From positions 558,001 to 622,000 of the forward strand of contig NZ_CP050308.1 of NCBI RefSeq assembly GCF_014189535.1: a DNA stretch of 64,000 nt, written 5' to 3'. The position numbers and the translations under genes were made by a program. Each line of letters starts with the position of its first letter. Positions within the stretch are counted from its first letter, which is position 1. The notes beneath the pieces were generated by a model. The model was not told the DNA's origin, ran no database searches, and was given only the letters and a program-made list of their open reading frames with translations. This DNA comes from Rhizobium lusitanum. GTDB lineage: Bacteria; Pseudomonadota; Alphaproteobacteria; Rhizobiales; Rhizobiaceae. Of this stretch, positions 4,557 through 13,290 are shown piece by piece.

Positions 4557-4877
4557 TCAAGCCTGACGTTCGGGAACGTGCACGACAAGACCGTCGAGCG
4601 CCTGCGTTACCTTGATCTGACAGGAGAGCCTTGAACTCGGACGAACGTCGAAGGCGAAGTCCAGCATATCCTCTTCCATCGGCGCCGGACCGCCGACTTT
4701 CTCCACCCAGTCCTCATCGACATAGACATGACAGGTGGCGCAGGCACAAGCGCCGCCGCATTCGGCGTCAACGCCAGGAACGGAGTTGCGAACGGCATTC
4801 TCCATCACTGTGGAGCCATCGTCGGCAGTGAGGTCAAAACGCGTGCCGTCGAAAGCGACGATGGTCAGTTTGGTCAT
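4557..4877 (-). CDS. [2Fe-2S] ferredoxin, adrenodoxin/putidaredoxin type
   Basis: A 106-residue electron carrier. Cys40, Cys46, Cys49 and Cys86 follow the C-x5-C-x2-C...C spacing of vertebrate-type [2Fe-2S] ferredoxins; Cys44 is an extra cysteine within the loop. The C-terminal [12 protein letters not shown] is also typical. I chose ATG 4877 ([11 protein letters not shown]): the 19 further residues available upstream to 4934 do not resemble the family. Such ferredoxins serve Fe-S assembly, P450s or hydroxylases; nothing nearby names the partner. It is followed by the HPt gene on the same strand 149 bp upstream, perhaps a separate unit. Confidence 0.9.
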
Positions 4878-5026
4878 GTGAATGAATTCCGGTATTCGTG
4901 TTTCAAGGATGATCCGGAATTTTTCTTCCACCAATTCCCCGAGGCAGTCAACATTTGCGCCGCCGAAACGGCTGAAACCGTTTGGCGGCGCAATGAGAAG
5001 AATCTTTGGTGTCCGGCAGTCTCAGT

Positions 5027-5395
5027 TCAACGCGACAGCTTGAGAATGAAGTTCTCTGCCTCGATGACGCAGGTCGTCACCTTCGCCATGCAGGAAGCGT
5101 CGCCGGCATCGCTTTCGAGCGCATTGGCGGCATCCGCCACCTTGAAGGCGCCGACCGCACTGGCGGCACCCTTCAGCCGGTGCGATGCAGCCAGAATGCG
5201 TTTGCTGTCGCCGCTACCGATTTCCTGCAGACAGGACCGGGCCTGCCGGGCAAACATCTGTAGCACTTCCACTTCCAGGGCCTTGTCGCCCATCGTCTGC
5301 TTCGCCAGGTGAACCAGGTCGATCGCCCGCTCCCGCGACGGCGCCGCGCCGCGCGAATTATCCGGGGCCTCGAACGCGATATTCAATGCTGCCAT
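5027..5395 (-). CDS. HPt (histidine phosphotransfer) domain protein
   Basis: A stand-alone 122-residue HPt protein: a four-helix bundle with the phospho-acceptor motif HRLKGAA, His72. It lacks kinase or receiver domains, so it must relay phosphate between a hybrid kinase and a response regulator encoded elsewhere. The last helices (ADAANALESDAG, CVIEAENFILKL) complete the bundle. It is transcribed away from the giant scaffold gene at 5888, across a 492-bp region holding a CtrA-like box. In alphaproteobacteria HPt proteins often belong to the cell-cycle phosphorelay, but the partner here is not visible and this is not ChpT, which is larger. Confidence 0.88.
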   Translation of the reverse strand: MAALNIAFEAPDNSRGAAPSRERAIDLVHLAKQTMGDKALEVEVLQMFARQARSCLQEIGSGDSKRILAASHRLKGAASAVGAFKVADAANALESDAGDASCMAKVTTCVIEAENFILKLSR

Positions 5396-5887: not shown

Positions 5888-8800
5888 ATGGCGAACAAAA
5901 AGTACATCGAGTCGATCGAGGACAAAGCCTTTCAGGCATTGGACGAAGCTTTACAGATCGATTTCAGTGAGGATAGCTTGGAGTCTCGCGGCGGTTCAAC
6001 GCCAGATGCCCCGGAGGCAAAAGTGTCTGAGCCATCAAATCCGCCTGCAGCACAGCCCCAAGAGGATACGGCCCGCAAGGCATCCGCAGCGCGCAGCACT
6101 GCCGCAGCAGCGGCTCGCCCGGCCGAACAGCCGAAGACCCCGGTCTTTGCTCCTGCCAATGACGCCAACCGCGCCAGCCCGGCGAGCATTCTGAAAGCTC
6201 TCGACGGCGGCTCCCAAAGCAACGCCGTCCGCAATGCGACTATCTTCTCGTTGTTCTGGATCATCGGCGGGGCCGGCCTCACCTTCCTGCTTTACGGCGA
6301 TCAGATCCGTAGCATCCGCACCCTCGCCGATCTCGCCGCCCTTCCCGGCGTCATCGCCTGCATCATCGGCATCGTCGTTCCCGTCCTTCTGTTCTACGCC
6401 TTTGGCATGATGATTTCGCGTGCCCAGGACATGCGCAACGCCGCCCGCTCCATGGCGGAAGTGGCCCTGCGCCTCGTCGAACCTGAAACCGTCGCCTCCG
6501 AGCGCATCATGACGGTCGGCCAGGCCGTGCGCCGCGAAGTCTCGGCCATGAACGAAGGCATAGAGCGGACCATTGCCCGCGCCACCGAGCTTGAGACGCT
6601 GGTTCACACCGAAGTCAACGCGCTGGAGCGCAGCTACGCCGACAACGAATTGCGCGTGCGCGGTCTCGTGCATGAACTCGGCTCGGAGCGCGACGCGATC
6701 GTCAACCATGCCGAACGTATTCGCTCTTCGATCGTTGGCGTGCATGAGCAGATCCGCGAAGATCTATCGCTGGCGACCGAAGAAATCGCCGTCCGCCTGT
6801 CGACCTCCGGCGAGGCCTTCGCCTCGATGATCGACACGCGCGCCGCAACGCTGATGGAGACATCCGACGCCGCCGTGGACGCGCTCGGCACCCTGCTGTC
6901 CGCCAAGACCGACAGCCTGCTGCAGAACCTGAACGCCTCCGGCTTCGCGCTGAGCCAGGAATTCGATGCACGCCTGGAATCCCTGTCTTCCACCCTCGCC
7001 GAACGCGGCAAGGAATTGGTGGGCCAATTCGAGACCCGCGCATCGACACTCGATGCCAATACCGAGAAGCTGAACACCGCTCTCAATGAGCGCGCCCGTC
7101 AGCTCAACGAAACGCTGGTCGCCCGCACCCGCGAAATCAGCGAGAGCCTGACCGGCAGCGAGCGCTCGATCACCGGCACGCTCGACGCAGTTCTCTCCAA
7201 GCTGAACAGCAGCCTCGACGAAAAGGGCGCGAGCTTCCGCCAGAGCCTGCAATCGACTGCCGACGATACCATCATGGATATCGACCTTCGCTCTGGCTTC
7301 TTCGAGGAGCGCTTCCAGTCGACCGTTGCGCATCTTTCGACCACGTTCGATGAACGTGTCTCCGAATTCACCTCCGCCTTCGACAAGCGTGCCGGCTCGC
7401 TGGATAGCAAGCTGTCGGAAAGCCTGGCGCGGATCAACGAGACGCTCGGCGGCGGATCGGATGCCATTGACGGTATTCTGACCTCCAGCATCGATCGCCT
7501 TGGCTCGTCGCTGACCGACCAGTCCTTCGCCCTGGCAACAACGTTCGCCACCAGCCAGGAACTGCTGGAAAGCGCAATCGGCGACAAGGCCGGTGAAATT
7601 GCTACCGCTCTCCAGGGCGCGACGACGCATATTTCCTCGGCCCTGACTTCCGGCACCAGCGAGATGAACTCCACCCTCGCCGCGCATGCCGGTGCCTTTA
7701 CCTCTGCCGTACAGGGCGTGACACGCGATGTTTCGACCGCCCTCCAGAGCGGCACGGAAGAGCTCACCTCGGCCTTCGCAGGCCGCTCCGCCGAACTGAA
7801 CGATACGCTGGCAGCTCATTCCGGTGAATTCACCAAGTCCGTGCAGACGGCTACGTCGGACATCTCCTCTGCGCTGAACAAGGGCACGAGCGAGCTCACA
7901 AATACATTCCTCGGCCGCGCCAACGAGATCAACAACACGCTCTCTGCCCGCACAGGTGAAATCACCCAGGCGCTGGGTTCCGCGCATGAACATATCGATA
8001 CCGTCATGGCCGAGCGCAGCAGCGCTCTGTTCGGCGCCCTCTCCGACCACCAGACACGCTTCGAGCAGACCCTGGCCGAGCGCTCGGCTGGCATTCTCAA
8101 TGCCGTCAGCGGCACCCACGAAAACCTGACTTCGGCTCTCGATGAGCGCACATCGAAGCTGACGAATTCGCTTTCCGAAAGCCAGCTTCGTCTCGAAAAT
8201 ACGCTCGCAAGCCGTGCCGACACCTTTGCCAATACCGTCGCCGACACACACAGCAAGCTCGCGGACACGCTGGACGACAAGGCCATGGCTCTTGCCATCG
8301 CTCTCTCCGATGGCCAGTCACGCATCGAAGATACACTGAACAACCGTGCCGAAATCCTGACCAGCACATTGGCCGATACGCATGCCAAGATCGCCGATAC
8401 TTTCGACGATAAGGCCATGGCCCTTGCCATTGCACTCTCGGAAAGCCAGGCACGGCTGGACGACACCGTTGCAGGCCATGCCGAAGCGGTCGCCAATACG
8501 ATGGACGGCAAGACCAAGGCACTCGCCGCCGCATTGACCCACGGCCAGTCGCGCCTCGAGGAAACCTTGGCGCATCGTGCCGAAGCGATCACCAACGCCT
8601 TCTCAGGCAACCACAACGCCGTTGCCGACACGCTGGATCAGAAGGCCGTCGCCTTGGCCGCCTCGCTGGCCGATACGCAAGCACGCCTGGAAAATTCGCT
8701 TTCCAGCCGCATGGATGCACTCGCCGACACCGTCGCCGGCACGCATGACAAGATCGTCAACAGCCTCGACGACAAGACGCTGGCGCTTGCCATCGCCCTG

Positions 8801-11800
8801 TCCGACAATCAGGCCCGGATCGAGGAAACGCTGGCAAACAGCGCAGACGCAATCGCCCAGTCGATCAATCATGGCCACGCAGCTCTGACGGACACACTCG
8901 ACGACAAGAGCATGGCATTCGCCATCTCGCTCGCCGAAAACCAAAGCCGTTTCGAAAGCACGCTCGAAGCCCGGGCCAATGCCCTGCTCGACAGCGTATC
9001 CGGTGCGGAATCCCGCGTCGCCGGCGCCTTCGGTGACAAGGCCGAAGCCATTCGCGCCGCCTACACCGAAAATCAGGAGCGCCTCGACCGTTCGCTCACC
9101 GCCCATACCGATGCACTCTCAGGCCTGCTCGGCAGCAGCAGCGACCGTATCGAAACCGTCGTCGGCGGCTCGGCCGAACGGGTCGAGAAGGCGCTCGGCG
9201 CCGGTCTGTCGCAAATGGATGAGAACCTTGCTTCCGCCTATGAGCGCATGCGTTCCACCCTGGACGATCGCAGCAACGCTATCAGCGTGACGCTACGCGA
9301 CGCCCATGCCCAGATCGACAATACCCTGATGGAACAAGCGACTGCGATCGGAACTTCGATCGCTACCAGCGCCAGCATGCTGGAAATGTCGCTCGAGGAT
9401 CGCGAAGCTTCGCTGCGACAGACCATTGATGCCAGCGCGAAAACGCTTGAGGAGCGCCTGCACAGCGGCGCCGGCGATATTGCCGGTCGTATCCAGCAGG
9501 CAGCCGGCGATATCCAGCGTTCGGCCGAGGGCTTCTCCACCAACCTCAACCAGTCGGTCGACGGCATGACCAGCCGCTTTGCCGAAACCGGCTCGCGCGT
9601 CGAAGCCAGCCTGTCTGCCCTCGAAAATCGCATTCACGAAGGCGTCGGCGGCGTTGCCGCTCAGGTCGATGCTGCCGGAAACCGCCTGTCTGACACGCTG
9701 GCCAGCGGCGCTGCCCGCATCGACAGCAGCGGCGGCGATGCGGCGACCCGCCTCACCTCCGCGCTCGACGAGCGTCTGGCAACCTTGGCCGAAGCACTCG
9801 ACAGCCGTACGACCCATCTGAACCAGGCGCTCGAAAGCGGCAGTGCCCGCATCGAAGAACGTCTGTCGACCATGGACCGGGCGCTGAACGTCGGCCTCGA
9901 AGCCGTCAACCGCACCATCGAAGGCAAAGCCACCAACCTCGCCACGACGCTGCGCACCGCCGTTGCCGATGCCGCTCAGGGCATGGACAGCGAAGCCACG
10001 CGCACTGCCGATCTGCTCGCCCGCACCGGCCAGCAATTCGCCGACGACCTCGGAAACCACAGTGACGCCTTCACCCGCGTCATGAGCGAGCGTTCGGAAG
10101 AAATCGTCGGCCGCGTCTCCGAAACGCACAATCGTCTGGCGAGCCAGGCAGCTGCCGTCGCCCAGACCTTCTCGGAAGCCGGCAACGCGATCGTCAACAA
10201 GGTCGCCGAAGCCGAGACCCTGGTCGGCAATCAAGTCAACGCCATCTCGCAGGCGCTGTCTTCCGCCGAACAGTCGCTGGAAGCCCGTGGCTCTGCCATC
10301 CGCAACACGCTTGCCGGCGGCAGCGAACAGATCGCCTCCACCATGGCGCAAGTCGAGCGCGCGCTCGACGAACGCAGCAATGCGATCCGCTCTAACCTGG
10401 AAGCGCGCGCCAACGAGATCAATGCGACGCTTGCCGATGTCGACAAGGCTCTGGAAGCGCGTGGCACGTCGATCCGCACCTCGCTTGACGAACGCACCCG
10501 CGAGCTCAATTCCATGCTCGCCGGCCGCTCCAGCGAACTGTCGCGCCTGATCGATGAAAAGGCCCGCCCGATCGTTGACCGCTACGCCGCGACCGGCCAG
10601 GAAGCAGCAGCGCTCATCACACAGGCCGCTCAGGAAAGTACCGACCGCCTGCGTGCGGAAAATGCAGCCCTGATCGACGCCATCGCATCGCGCACCAATG
10701 ATACGCTGGCGGCAATCTCCGCCCGCACCGAACATGCCACCAACACGGTCAGCTCGCTGGAAAACAACCTGCTTGCTAGCGTCAACGGCATCATCGAGCG
10801 GCTGGCGGACAATAACTCAACCATCGTTGGCATGCTGCACAATGCCGCTCAGGAGTTCGCCGCTGTCGACGACCGCCTCAGTGCCACGTCCGTCCAGTTT
10901 GCCGACTCCGCGTCGAAGGCCGGCGAAATGGTCTCTGCTTCGACCCGCCTTCTCGAAGGCAAGGTTGACAAGCTCTCGGACATCTCCGGCAAGACGCTGT
11001 CGCAGGTCGGCGGCATCATTGGCCGCTTCGACGAGCATTCCCAGGTGTTGACGCAGGCCTCCCAGCTTCTGGGTGCCGCGCAGTCCAACCTCGTCTCGAC
11101 GCTGGAAGAACGCGAAACCGCGCTGCAGAACCTGTCAATCGGCCTGGTGCAGCGCTCGGAAGAGATCGAGAACACCATGCGCGCCCTCGGCAGCATGGTG
11201 GAGACCGCATTCGACCGCGCCGAGCAGCGCTCCAATCAGGTCACCGGCAATCTGCGTCAAGGTGTGCAGTCCTCCTTCGCCGATATCGGCCGCGTTCTTT
11301 CCGATGCGGAAAAGCGCGCAGAAGAGGCGGCCGAGACTATGCGCGGCACGCTTCAGAAGGCCGGTGAGGAAGCCAACCAGACCATCGAGAGCACCTTCGC
11401 CAATGCCGAGCGCCGCTCGGGCGATTTGACGAACCGTCTTCGCGGTGGCCTCTCGGCTTCGATCGCCGATGTCGAACAGATGCTCAGCGAAGCCGGCAAG
11501 TCCTCGGACGGTGCCGCTCAGCAGCTCCGTGAAACGCTGCGTGTTGCCGTCGACGACGCTGTTGGCCGCTTCTCCGGCGCGACCGATGAAATCCGCCGTT
11601 CGGCGGGCGACATTCGCCGCGAGCTCGACCTCACCCGCAGCGAACTGAAGCGCGGCGCCTTCGACCTGCCGGAAGAAGCCAAGGAAAGCGCGGCCGCCAT
11701 GCGCCGTGCCGTCGCCGAGCAGATCAAGGCCCTGCAGGACATTTCGCAGATCGTCGGCCGCTCGACGCAGCACCTCGAAATCTCCGAGCCGACGGCCCGC

Positions 11801-12544
11801 GCGATTACCGAAGCACAGCCGGCCCAGCGTCCGCGTCCGGCCGCACCGGCGCCAGTCGCCGCTGCTCCGGCTCCCCGGCCTCAGCAGCCTGCTCCGCAGG
11901 CACCGGTCGCTCAGCAGGTAGTACCGCAGCCTGCCCCACAACAACCGGCTCCGAAGCCGCAGCAGCCGACGATCGAGGCTCTGGGCCTGCGCGGCAGCAT
12001 CGCCGCCGAACGTCCCGTCGCTCCGCAGCCGCGTCCGGCCGAAACGCCGGTTCCCGCCCGCCAGGAAACGGCTGGCGGCGGCTGGATCAGCGATCTCCTG
12101 CGTGGCGCATCGCGCGATGAAAATGCCGACCTGCAGCCCGCGCGTCAGGCCACGCCCCGCGCACAGACGGAATCGACACCCGCCGCACGCAATCCGCGCC
12201 ATGTGGTGGAATCGCTGAACTCGCTCTCGGTCGACATCGCCCGCGCCATCGACCACGACGCCTCTGTCGACCTGTGGCGCCGTTATCAGCGCGGCGAACG
12301 GGATGTCTTCACACGTCGTCTCTACACGCTGAAGGGCCAGCAGACCTTTGACGAGATCAAGCGCAAGTACGACCGCGAACCTGAATTCCGCACCGCCGTC
12401 GACCGCTACATCGCCGATTTCGAAAAGCTGCTGGCGGACGTCGCCCGCACCGACCGCGACCGTACCGTCACCCAGTCCTACCTGACCTCCGACACCGGCA
12501 AGGTCTACACCATGCTGGCCCACGCAGCAGGCCGTCTGAGCTGA
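5888..12544 (+). CDS. rgsE: Giant membrane-anchored coiled-coil/apolipoprotein-like scaffold, GPR (growth pole ring)/RgsE type
   Basis: 2218 residues. Order: acidic then Ala/Pro-rich cytoplasmic N-terminus (1-115), two membrane segments (about 117-136 and 152-174), then roughly 1750 residues of continuous amphipathic helix built on 11-residue repeats. A Pro/Gln-rich linker (about 1975-2090) and a conserved C-terminal globular part (about 2105-2218, including VDLWRRYQRGERDVFTRRLY) follow. The architecture and size match GPR of Agrobacterium tumefaciens (about 2100 aa), which forms a ring at the growing pole and is needed for rod shape, and its Sinorhizobium homologue RgsE. A section at 8261-9151 is a clear 44-residue repeat array. 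ATG 5888 follows GAGGCG. A terminator lies 25 bp after the stop. Generic annotation often calls such proteins kinesin-like or apolipoprotein. The role here is inferred from architecture. Confidence 0.85.
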   Translation: MANKKYIESIEDKAFQALDEALQIDFSEDSLESRGGSTPDAPEAKVSEPSNPPAAQPQEDTARKASAARSTAAAAARPAEQPKTPVFAPANDANRASPASILKALDGGSQSNAVRNATIFSLFWIIGGAGLTFLLYGDQIRSIRTLADLAALPGVIACIIGIVVPVLLFYAFGMMISRAQDMRNAARSMAEVALRLVEPETVASERIMTVGQAVRREVSAMNEGIERTIARATELETLVHTEVNALERSYADNELRVRGLVHELGSERDAIVNHAERIRSSIVGVHEQIREDLSLATEEIAVRLSTSGEAFASMIDTRAATLMETSDAAVDALGTLLSAKTDSLLQNLNASGFALSQEFDARLESLSSTLAERGKELVGQFETRASTLDANTEKLNTALNERARQLNETLVARTREISESLTGSERSITGTLDAVLSKLNSSLDEKGASFRQSLQSTADDTIMDIDLRSGFFEERFQSTVAHLSTTFDERVSEFTSAFDKRAGSLDSKLSESLARINETLGGGSDAIDGILTSSIDRLGSSLTDQSFALATTFATSQELLESAIGDKAGEIATALQGATTHISSALTSGTSEMNSTLAAHAGAFTSAVQGVTRDVSTALQSGTEELTSAFAGRSAELNDTLAAHSGEFTKSVQTATSDISSALNKGTSELTNTFLGRANEINNTLSARTGEITQALGSAHEHIDTVMAERSSALFGALSDHQTRFEQTLAERSAGILNAVSGTHENLTSALDERTSKLTNSLSESQLRLENTLASRADTFANTVADTHSKLADTLDDKAMALAIALSDGQSRIEDTLNNRAEILTSTLADTHAKIADTFDDKAMALAIALSESQARLDDTVAGHAEAVANTMDGKTKALAAALTHGQSRLEETLAHRAEAITNAFSGNHNAVADTLDQKAVALAASLADTQARLENSLSSRMDALADTVAGTHDKIVNSLDDKTLALAIALSDNQARIEETLANSADAIAQSINHGHAALTDTLDDKSMAFAISLAENQSRFESTLEARANALLDSVSGAESRVAGAFGDKAEAIRAAYTENQERLDRSLTAHTDALSGLLGSSSDRIETVVGGSAERVEKALGAGLSQMDENLASAYERMRSTLDDRSNAISVTLRDAHAQIDNTLMEQATAIGTSIATSASMLEMSLEDREASLRQTIDASAKTLEERLHSGAGDIAGRIQQAAGDIQRSAEGFSTNLNQSVDGMTSRFAETGSRVEASLSALENRIHEGVGGVAAQVDAAGNRLSDTLASGAARIDSSGGDAATRLTSALDERLATLAEALDSRTTHLNQALESGSARIEERLSTMDRALNVGLEAVNRTIEGKATNLATTLRTAVADAAQGMDSEATRTADLLARTGQQFADDLGNHSDAFTRVMSERSEEIVGRVSETHNRLASQAAAVAQTFSEAGNAIVNKVAEAETLVGNQVNAISQALSSAEQSLEARGSAIRNTLAGGSEQIASTMAQVERALDERSNAIRSNLEARANEINATLADVDKALEARGTSIRTSLDERTRELNSMLAGRSSELSRLIDEKARPIVDRYAATGQEAAALITQAAQESTDRLRAENAALIDAIASRTNDTLAAISARTEHATNTVSSLENNLLASVNGIIERLADNNSTIVGMLHNAAQEFAAVDDRLSATSVQFADSASKAGEMVSASTRLLEGKVDKLSDISGKTLSQVGGIIGRFDEHSQVLTQASQLLGAAQSNLVSTLEERETALQNLSIGLVQRSEEIENTMRALGSMVETAFDRAEQRSNQVTGNLRQGVQSSFADIGRVLSDAEKRAEEAAETMRGTLQKAGEEANQTIESTFANAERRSGDLTNRLRGGLSASIADVEQMLSEAGKSSDGAAQQLRETLRVAVDDAVGRFSGATDEIRRSAGDIRRELDLTRSELKRGAFDLPEEAKESAAAMRRAVAEQIKALQDISQIVGRSTQHLEISEPTARAITEAQPAQRPRPAAPAPVAAAPAPRPQQPAPQAPVAQQVVPQPAPQQPAPKPQQPTIEALGLRGSIAAERPVAPQPRPAETPVPARQETAGGGWISDLLRGASRDENADLQPARQATPRAQTESTPAARNPRHVVESLNSLSVDIARAIDHDASVDLWRRYQRGERDVFTRRLYTLKGQQTFDEIKRKYDREPEFRTAVDRYIADFEKLLADVARTDRDRTVTQSYLTSDTGKVYTMLAHAAGRLS
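8261..9151 (+). repeat. In-gene tandem repeat, 132-bp (44-residue) units
   Basis: Seven in-frame units begin at 8261, 8393, 8492, 8624, 8756, 8888 and 9020. All spacings are 132 bp except the second, which is 99 bp. Each unit opens with a variant of ADTLDDKAMALAIALSDGQ. The 99-bp unit lacks exactly 11 residues, showing that the 44-mer is four 11-residue helical turns. The DNA copies are diverged, so the repeat is old and held at protein level. Confidence 0.85.
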
Positions 12545-12567: not shown

Positions 12568-12601
12568 AAAAAATCCCCGGTCATTGTGCCGGGGATTTTT
12601 G
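12568..12601 (+). terminator. Rho-independent terminator of rgsE
   Basis: AAATCCCCGG and CCGGGGATTT form a stem around an eight-base loop, with a T-run, 25 bp after the rgsE stop. Confidence 0.88.
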
Positions 12602-12648
12602 ATTCTGGTCGGGATACCCTTGCCGAAAACATAGGCGGAGCAAAAAGC

Positions 12649-13290
12649 ATGAGGCGTTCGGTAGCTATAGGCCTGGTGCTTATCTGCGGGGGATACTTCC
12701 TTTGGAAGGCCCAGATGACACGCTCTGCGACAATATCGTTGGAACCGACCCCATATAATCTAACCTATGCAATGGCATGGGGCTGGGGGATGGAGGAGCG
12801 GTTCAGCATAACGCCGATCGGAGCGCTGTTATCCGGACCATCCAGCGATTGGATAGATATCTGGAAAAGGCCCTATAACTCCGGGATCGCTCTCTACCGA
12901 ACTTTGGACGGAAGAACCTACTATCTAGGTCTCTCGTATCAGCTGTTTTGGTTTCATGCCCCGTCAGGGGACTTGGTGGCATCCTGCGACAAAGGCAATA
13001 TCCCAGCTTATACTTCGCTAGGTGACGAGATTTCGAAATTGAGAAACTATGAAGCCATCGAGGCTTTGGATCCTGGCGCGTGGCATCTTTTCGAATACAT
13101 TGAAGCTGATCAACGTGGGACAATTCCAACATTGCCGCCCAACTCGCGATATTACGCCAACCTCCAGTATCTGGGGAAATTTGGGCTTGTTAGACCAGAG
13201 AAGCGCGGTGGTCGCGGTGATGAGGTCGACTTCGCTCCAGCAGGCAAGGCACCCGAACCCCGTCTTGGCCTGGACTTCTCCTGCGGATAG
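12649..13290 (+). CDS. Hypothetical protein with N-terminal membrane anchor
   Basis: 213 residues with one hydrophobic segment (residues 5-17) just after MRRS, so either a membrane anchor or a signal peptide. The rest is rich in Trp and Tyr (AMAWGWGMEERF, YYLGLSYQLFWFHAP) with a late Cys in CDKGN and another at the C-terminus. I chose ATG 12649, preceded by GGCGGAG; an in-frame ATG at 12586 lies inside the rgsE terminator and is unlikely. Codon choice is less G+C-biased than in neighbours (many third-position A/T), which suggests recent acquisition. No family recognised. Confidence 0.6.
   Translation: MRRSVAIGLVLICGGYFLWKAQMTRSATISLEPTPYNLTYAMAWGWGMEERFSITPIGALLSGPSSDWIDIWKRPYNSGIALYRTLDGRTYYLGLSYQLFWFHAPSGDLVASCDKGNIPAYTSLGDEISKLRNYEAIEALDPGAWHLFEYIEADQRGTIPTLPPNSRYYANLQYLGKFGLVRPEKRGGRGDEVDFAPAGKAPEPRLGLDFSCG

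Follow-up and report, generated by a model that had tools for sequence, protein, structure and literature searches.

The window, a stretch of 64,000 nucleotides from Rhizobium lusitanum (RefSeq assembly GCF_014189535.1, contig NZ_CP050308.1, positions 558,001 to 622,000), encodes a giant protein of 2218 residues whose layout and relatives support its assignment as an orthologue of GPR/RgsE. The features of this gene and its surroundings are as follows (aa, amino acid positions in the 2218-residue protein).

4557..4934, minus strand: 2Fe-2S ferredoxin gene adjoining the Hpt gene (PF00111)
5027..5395, minus strand: gene for an Hpt (histidine phosphotransfer) domain protein, the divergent upstream neighbour (PF01627, E 4.8e-10)
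5888..12544, plus strand: intact gpr/rgsE orthologue of 2218 aa, one open frame from the ATG at 5888 to the stop at 12544
6221..6622, plus strand: putative N-terminal membrane hairpin and the stretch after it (aa 112-245), from hydropathy and a profile match to the TipN N-terminus
6605..11587, plus strand: rod, probably helical (aa 240-1900), with 1 proline in 1661 residues
7058..9532, plus strand: phase-locked stretch within the rod (aa 391-1215), a run of 75 units of 11 residues with constant phase and apolar core positions
10853..11182, plus strand: interruption of the 11-residue pattern at about aa 1656-1765 (pattern power 0.7)
11768..12187, plus strand: linker (aa 1961-2100), by composition Pro/Gln-rich mainly at aa 1961-2060
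12188..12541, plus strand: C-terminal domain (aa 2101-2218) with six predicted helices, from profile searches and AlphaFold, common to TipN and rodless relatives
12586-13290, plus strand: GTG-started open frame of 234 aa directly after gpr

The frame is free of stops from end to end, as a preliminary description of this DNA had it, and its N-terminal start, MAN[KN]KY, is found again in most loci of the genus. Hydropathy places the two N-terminal membrane segments of that description at aa 117-135 and 151-169 and finds no further hydrophobic segment in the 2218-residue protein at the thresholds used, and the Pro/Gln linker described there is confirmed by 40 P or Q among 100 residues at about aa 1961-2060. 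The Pfam apolipoprotein A1/A4/E model PF01442 matches 11 stretches of the protein (E 5.7e-67, 225.5 bits against a cut-off of 90), and its matches above that cut-off are confined to this one frame in the entire genome. Size, membrane segments, PF01442, Pro-rich linker and C-terminal domain all agree with the published layout of GPR (Atu1348 of A. tumefaciens, 2115 aa) and RgsE (SMc00190 of S. meliloti, 2089 aa; PMC8262873, PMC7327166), and the GPR/RgsE identity proposed earlier stands on these grounds. The alignment proposed along with it, with GPR and RgsE themselves, was run on relatives only: identity to a full-length orthologue from a record bearing the name Agrobacterium vitis is 52% over the protein and 95% in the C-terminal domain at about aa 2101-2218, which had rightly been described as conserved. 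A protein of Rhizobium rhizogenes OV677, the top of 80 named contigs ranked by C-terminal domain (a ranking from which the own genome is possibly excluded), is 96% identical over its full length.

All 45 genus loci have the divergent Hpt gene, as do 78 of 80 named loci and 23 of 29 loci of other families of the order, and the divergent orientation holds in the 29 loci of the order and class for which orientation was worked out; the ferredoxin gene accompanies gpr in all 45 genus loci and in 22 of the 29 from other families. Draws from the class, where several loci carry little upstream sequence, gave an Hpt-like frame in 8 of 56 loci, divergent and upstream in 7 of these 8, with 3 of the 7 from the same order. 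The recurrence of a divergent Hpt gene with gpr across Rhizobiales families hints at a phosphorelay connected with the growing pole. No Hpt partner was found at the 3 TipN loci and 11 rodless loci examined (both described below), and the Hpt neighbourhood was dropped as a clue to the TipN family (0/3 and 0/11 loci). On the other side of gpr, the 234-aa frame at 12586-13290 has no Pfam match and no relative in the 45 genus or 80 named loci; it is perhaps a recent arrival or no gene.

An 11-residue pattern in the rod

Large apolar residues recur in the rod with a period of 3.667 (3/11) and a power of 69.5, compared with a theoretical mean of 1, and the power at the heptad frequency is 0.5. Because of this period and the scarcity of proline—a lone one within aa 240-1900—we infer that the rod is helical. 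Phase and pattern strength were read in 110-residue windows. The pattern is strong at about aa 281-1655, is gone in the 110-residue windows covering aa 1601-1765 and is back at about aa 1766-1930; its phase is flat over aa 391-1215 and drifts from aa 1216 to about 1655. The repeat claimed at first is therefore real and far above chance, but it does not run uninterrupted for about 1750 residues: it is strong only in these two parts and keeps strict phase only at aa 391-1215. Within that phase-locked part, two positions of the eleven, 7 and 4 residues apart, are I, L, V, M, F, W or Y in 74 of 75 units each, and the remaining positions hold such residues in at most 11% (among 1000 shuffled controls, the second-best position never exceeded 35%). 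T, A or S fill one position adjoining the apolar pair in 87% of these units.

An alphaproteobacterial family with constant ends

With a single sequence as the query, the C-terminal domain was found once per genome in 79 of 80 genomes, the own one included, and the lone miss (G072) is 67% complete; it was also found in 112 of 289 genomes of the class, a few of them with a second, weak match. A profile of 85 rows detected it in 157 of 387 class genomes. A phylum-wide draw gave matches in 128 of 397 genomes, all 128 being Alphaproteobacteria; as 249 non-matching rows are unlisted, the out-of-class share of the 397 is not shown. The single-sequence search placed the domain in a frame at 210 of 214 loci, and the other 4 are rodless and were found by the profile. 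It ends at most 22 residues before the frame end in all but one of the 210 (47 residues at L232), in frames that span 538 to 2752 residues at L185-L244. Of the 210 frames, 178 have exactly two predicted membrane segments, 13 have one, 12 have three and 7 have none.

The copies of Pfam and NCBIfam that we searched yielded no model over its cut-off on the domain in the window protein, in ten distant relatives or in six TipN and rodless proteins; PF28217, from a newer Pfam release, is given for some relatives among the 120 listed of 554, with its position within the protein unspecified. Structure prediction of the domain with AlphaFold, as advised in the preliminary description, returned six helices with a mean pLDDT of 85.3 and a pTM of 0.75, and no convincing fold match to this model was found among solved structures. 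The searches delineate an alphaproteobacterial family whose constant parts are a predicted membrane hairpin and a roughly 120-residue, predicted helical domain at the C-terminus.

Several members of this family, of about 325-440 aa, keep hairpin and domain but have no long rod. The matching frames of family f52 measure 329-481 aa, and the five inspected have hairpin and domain without a long rod; compared with GPR profiles, these proteins reach probabilities of 96.8 in the domain and 96.2 in the hairpin, and the hairpin of a second, f92-like rodless set reaches 97.8. Matches of TipN to the rodless sets are weaker (71 in the domain; 90 and 28 in the hairpin). Four rodless proteins searched against Pfam and NCBIfam gave no model over cut-off. 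Hairpin plus C-terminal domain in about 325-400 aa is likewise the layout at L298, L299, L287, L288, L289, L290 and L291. Rodless and long-rod versions coexist in four f92 genomes, where the domain of the rodless version is followed by a further tail, and at L240/L241 the long-rod version is encoded opposite to a neighbour that resembles accA.

Across the family, the rod between the constant ends ranges from almost nothing to more than 2000 residues. The best pattern length among 80 rods is 25 residues in 43, 11 in 30, 18 in 5 and 29 in 2, and the 25-residue pattern (7+7+11) occurs in many rods outside the Rhizobiales (e.g., L188, L196 and L216). A tree of the C-terminal domain, computed by a quick method from 96 rows and 125 columns, has 45 open branches among its 93 inner ones, and the long branches of TipN and rodless proteins meet in it; we used this tree only for the clustering of 11-residue rods. 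Assigned by period, these rods are clustered (20 rows, 7 changes versus 18.3 when shuffled), and 19 of the 20 lie within one Rhizobiales part of the tree, in which many forks are weak. Type and length of the predicted rod change while the ends stay.

Both ends of GPR are matched in TipN

A domain profile built without sequences of family f86 matches the ends of f86 proteins of 833-995 aa, with E-values of 1.3e-9 to 2.4e-7 for the f86 genomes; the phylum draw gave matches at E <= 1e-6 in nine f86 genomes and no such match in at least one (G679). Some relatives of two of these f86 proteins are named tipN, from Brevundimonas (best 120 listed), Phenylobacterium and Asticcacaulis. The two listings of TipN relatives comprise 201 proteins, most of them nameless and most of them close Brevundimonas kin that are not independent, and the best domain match ends at most 12 aa from the C-terminus in all 201. 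It scores at least 20 bits in 199 of them, compared with at most 1.5 bits for reversed copies, and the two weakest, P0280 (13.4 bits) and P0318 (16.7 bits), are both named TipN.

Profile-profile comparisons, run as single comparisons with no database, matched the C-terminal domains of GPR and TipN with a probability of 98.4 when 40 diverse TipN sequences were used (E 7.5e-15, 118 columns) and of 97.1 with 21 TipN sequences, and the two hairpins with a probability of 98.1 (E 6.7e-14, 132 columns). As controls for the domain, six TipN rod windows gave at most 0.33 and the reversed domain 0.17; for the hairpin, reversed versions gave 2.6 and 1.4, and the six TipN rod windows gave at most 16 except for one at 66. 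A structural model of TipN from a TipN-only alignment has a mean pLDDT of 64 overall, with values of 85-93 for most of the blocks that make up the C-terminal domain, and the last four helices of this model (767-779, 781-803, 807-815 and 817-829 of 833) lie at nearly equal distances from the C-terminus as those of the GPR model (56-71, 73-96, 101-108 and 110-121 of 126). Profile comparison thus shows Caulobacteraceae TipN to belong to the same family as GPR/RgsE, with both ends matching. A similarity to TipN was already stated in passing in PMC8546619, and a passage of PMC9731437 names both GPR/RgsE and TipN without a link between them. No description of the shared C-terminal domain was found in the literature searched, which did not cover the 2019 PNAS paper on GPR.

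Rod length differences are mostly multiples of 11

Length changes of the rod were studied in a sample made up of the window protein, 45 genus loci and 80 named loci minus 2 short ones (124 relatives, 106 of them distinct), with a minimum spanning tree linking the 106 distinct proteins in 105 pairs and rod borders set by motifs, or by fixed fall-backs where a motif was absent. The rod mostly changes length in 11-residue steps. Across the tree pairs, 190 of 286 indels in the rod are multiples of 11 versus 4 of 402 elsewhere, and 231 of 286 rod indels stay within 35 degrees of phase versus 58 of 402 outside, a comparison that is not quite fair because the outside parts are mostly loose linkers. 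A further 41 rod events leave a remainder of 4 or 7 on division by 11 and come close to preserving the stripe. The rod, although several times longer, has 41 indels of 1-6 residues versus 320 outside, and this scarcity suggests that selection on register also acts.

An alignment-free test of rod length agrees for those proteins in which anchors could be placed. The first anchors placed 29 of 106 proteins, of which 27 share the same residue mod 11, and all 17 non-zero differences between tree pairs are multiples of 11. Looser anchors placed 62 of 106, with 51 of the 62 on the same residue mod 11; 27 of 34 non-zero tree-pair differences are then multiples of 11, 6 are off by 4 or 7, and 1 is off by 1 or 10. 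Over all pairs, these anchors give 1142 non-zero differences that are multiples of 11 and 598 that are not. Total protein length has no preference for multiples of 11 in the same check.

Alternative readings of the rod and of its relatives

Apolipoproteins are built of 22-mers punctuated by proline. The rod, with its single proline in 1661 residues, has no such proline-punctuated 22-mers; its apolar stripe is narrow (2 positions in 11), and relatives with the same ends show 25-residue patterns (43 of 80) or 18- and 29-residue ones (together 7 of 80), each of these lengths being a sum of 7 and 11, like the patterns of coiled coils. The rod has the look of a coiled coil made of 11-residue units and not that of a classical apolipoprotein. 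The opposing reading is that of the authors of the GPR work, whose reasoning in PMC8262873 treats the rod as a true apolipoprotein-like surface in which amphipathic 11/22-residue helices on the membrane would organise lipid synthesis; the PF01442 score (225.5 against 90 bits) speaks in its favour, as does the fact that solved ApoA-IV is the sole PDB match (two chains, E 5.8e-5 and 8.9e-5), but in view of the points just given we hold it to be unlikely. Considerably less probable still is that GPR and TipN resemble each other in architecture only, with two transmembrane segments and a coil acquired by convergence. An aligned identity of about 21% in the C-terminal domain would be compatible with this, and a recent paper terms TipN "analogous" (PMC13170164); the profile matches at both ends, with their reversed and rod-window controls, and the C-terminal placement in 201 of 201 proteins argue so strongly for homology that we give convergence hardly any credence.

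More open to debate is how the steps of 11 arise. Recombination of imperfect repeats could alone yield multiples of 11, and these might be no more than a product of the way such a sequence mutates, through unequal recombination or slippage and with no selection on register. Duplication probably occurs, since a lag of 44 tops the self-identity of the protein (0.19, the highest of the lags printed), and 38 of 286 rod events are of 44 or 88 residues. No DNA-level tandem repeat was detected in the window gene, however, and the shortage of 1-6-residue indels in the rod (41 against 320) and the 41 of 96 non-multiples that nearly keep the stripe also count against mutation as the whole explanation, which we regard as possible yet doubtful; repeat recombination may supply the multiples-of-11 changes on which selection for register then acts. 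A molecular ruler, in which a fixed rod length sets the size of the ring, has in its favour a rod of about 1720 residues that would measure roughly 260 nm as a single straight helix by our own arithmetic, comparable to the 200-nm ring (PMC8262873). Close relatives, however, have rods of anything from 1441 to 2060 residues (62 of 106 proteins anchored), and given this wide variation we consider a fixed-length ruler highly improbable and dropped it as the main idea. An in-register coiled coil, the reading that we prefer, also fits the effect of short deletions, without being proven by it: losing 20 residues turns the 11-residue stripe by 164 degrees and losing 21 by 98 degrees, and GPR deletions of about 20 residues, given as 20 in the body of the paper and as 21 in its abstract, were surprisingly severe at one of two sites (PMC8262873).

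Among other models, that of ZorA (NCBIfam) matches the rod at aa 434-729 with 47.7 bits against a cut-off of 190, and its best stretch comprises only the tail of the model (positions 304-609 of 619); membership in ZorA was therefore rejected. The same tail is matched by 2 of 10 distant relatives (30.5 and 20.8 bits), a rod style common to GPR and a motor-type protein.

A probable coiled-coil scaffold with a membrane hairpin as its proposed anchor

GPR is reported to form a ring of six foci, and internal deletions of the rod disturb the ring or cell shape (PMC8262873). According to the same source, complementation suffers when 10, 221 or 332 residues are cut from the C-terminus, and paired polar foci are still formed by GPR without its last 332 residues, and thus without any of the domain; of these deletions only the one of 221 residues is diffuse, which its authors blame on cell shape or the remaining region. 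Since the 332-residue deletion still gives paired polar foci, the C-terminal domain is dispensable for ring formation or polar targeting. RgsE, whose mutant in S. meliloti is viable, is found at the growing pole and interacts with TolQ, RgsA and RgsS, with the TolQ contact seen by two-hybrid and RgsE present in the TolQ pull-down (PMC7327166), and TipN interacts with Tol-Pal (PMC7403779, citing Yeh 2010). It is plausible that the C-terminal domain binds partners.

We favour, with good though not full confidence, a polar-growth scaffold that is an enlarged relative of TipN, in a Rhizobium close to R. rhizogenes. The hairpin would anchor the protein in the inner membrane, and several chains of the rod would associate in register as a coiled coil, making up the ring or cluster at the new pole. 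Rather than form the ring, the C-terminal domain would dock partners at the pole; among the candidates, TolQ of the Tol-Pal system appears the most attractive, given that contacts with Tol-Pal have been reported for both RgsE and TipN. During the evolution of the Rhizobiales, the rod would have been enlarged, often into a pure 11-residue repeat, turning a landmark of the new pole into an organiser of unipolar growth. A bolder and decidedly tentative extension is that GPR, TipN and the rodless proteins all descend from one alphaproteobacterial landmark of the new pole, linked to Tol-Pal by way of its hairpin or its C-terminal domain, that unipolar growth arose as the rod was enlarged into a phase-locked hendecad coiled coil, and that this rod may be the added cytoplasmic tail of a TolQ-type motor, relaying force or position.

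It is an open question how the Rhizobiales select and construct a single pole of growth, and GPR/RgsE has so far been treated as a giant "apolipoprotein". With both ends tied to TipN, two separately studied polarity systems—which have in common an unnamed domain, a membrane hairpin and a reported Tol-Pal contact—become testable with each other's tools, and the 11-residue phase rule is a cheap and sharp discriminator between a coiled coil and a lipid surface.

Comparison with known systems

The closest counterparts are GPR and RgsE themselves, which share with the window protein its size, the two N-terminal membrane segments, the PF01442 region, the Pro-rich linker and, functionally important in the published proteins, the C-terminus; in the published layout, no important difference was seen. 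TipN, the new-pole marker of Caulobacteraceae, resembles GPR in its homologous hairpin and C-terminal domain with a rod between them and in the reported contact with Tol-Pal. It differs in being 833-995 aa long at the three loci examined and in a rod period of about 3.59 compared with 3.667, and Caulobacter is not known to show unipolar growth of the Rhizobiales kind. The rodless proteins (e.g., L298, L299, L290 and L291) have both conserved ends of GPR, but they lack the long rod, and in L290, L291 and L292 an extra tail follows the domain. Outside the family, Scy and FilP of Streptomyces are polar scaffolds with hendecads like GPR, and the small T/A/S position of the GPR rod recalls their hendecad coiled coils, in which core positions are often alanine (PMC9858780). 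Scy is described in the same source as having a rod of more than 1000 residues that consists nearly entirely of hendecads and has grown from a shorter relative. Scy and FilP are actinobacterial, however, and have different ends with a DivIVA-like motif.
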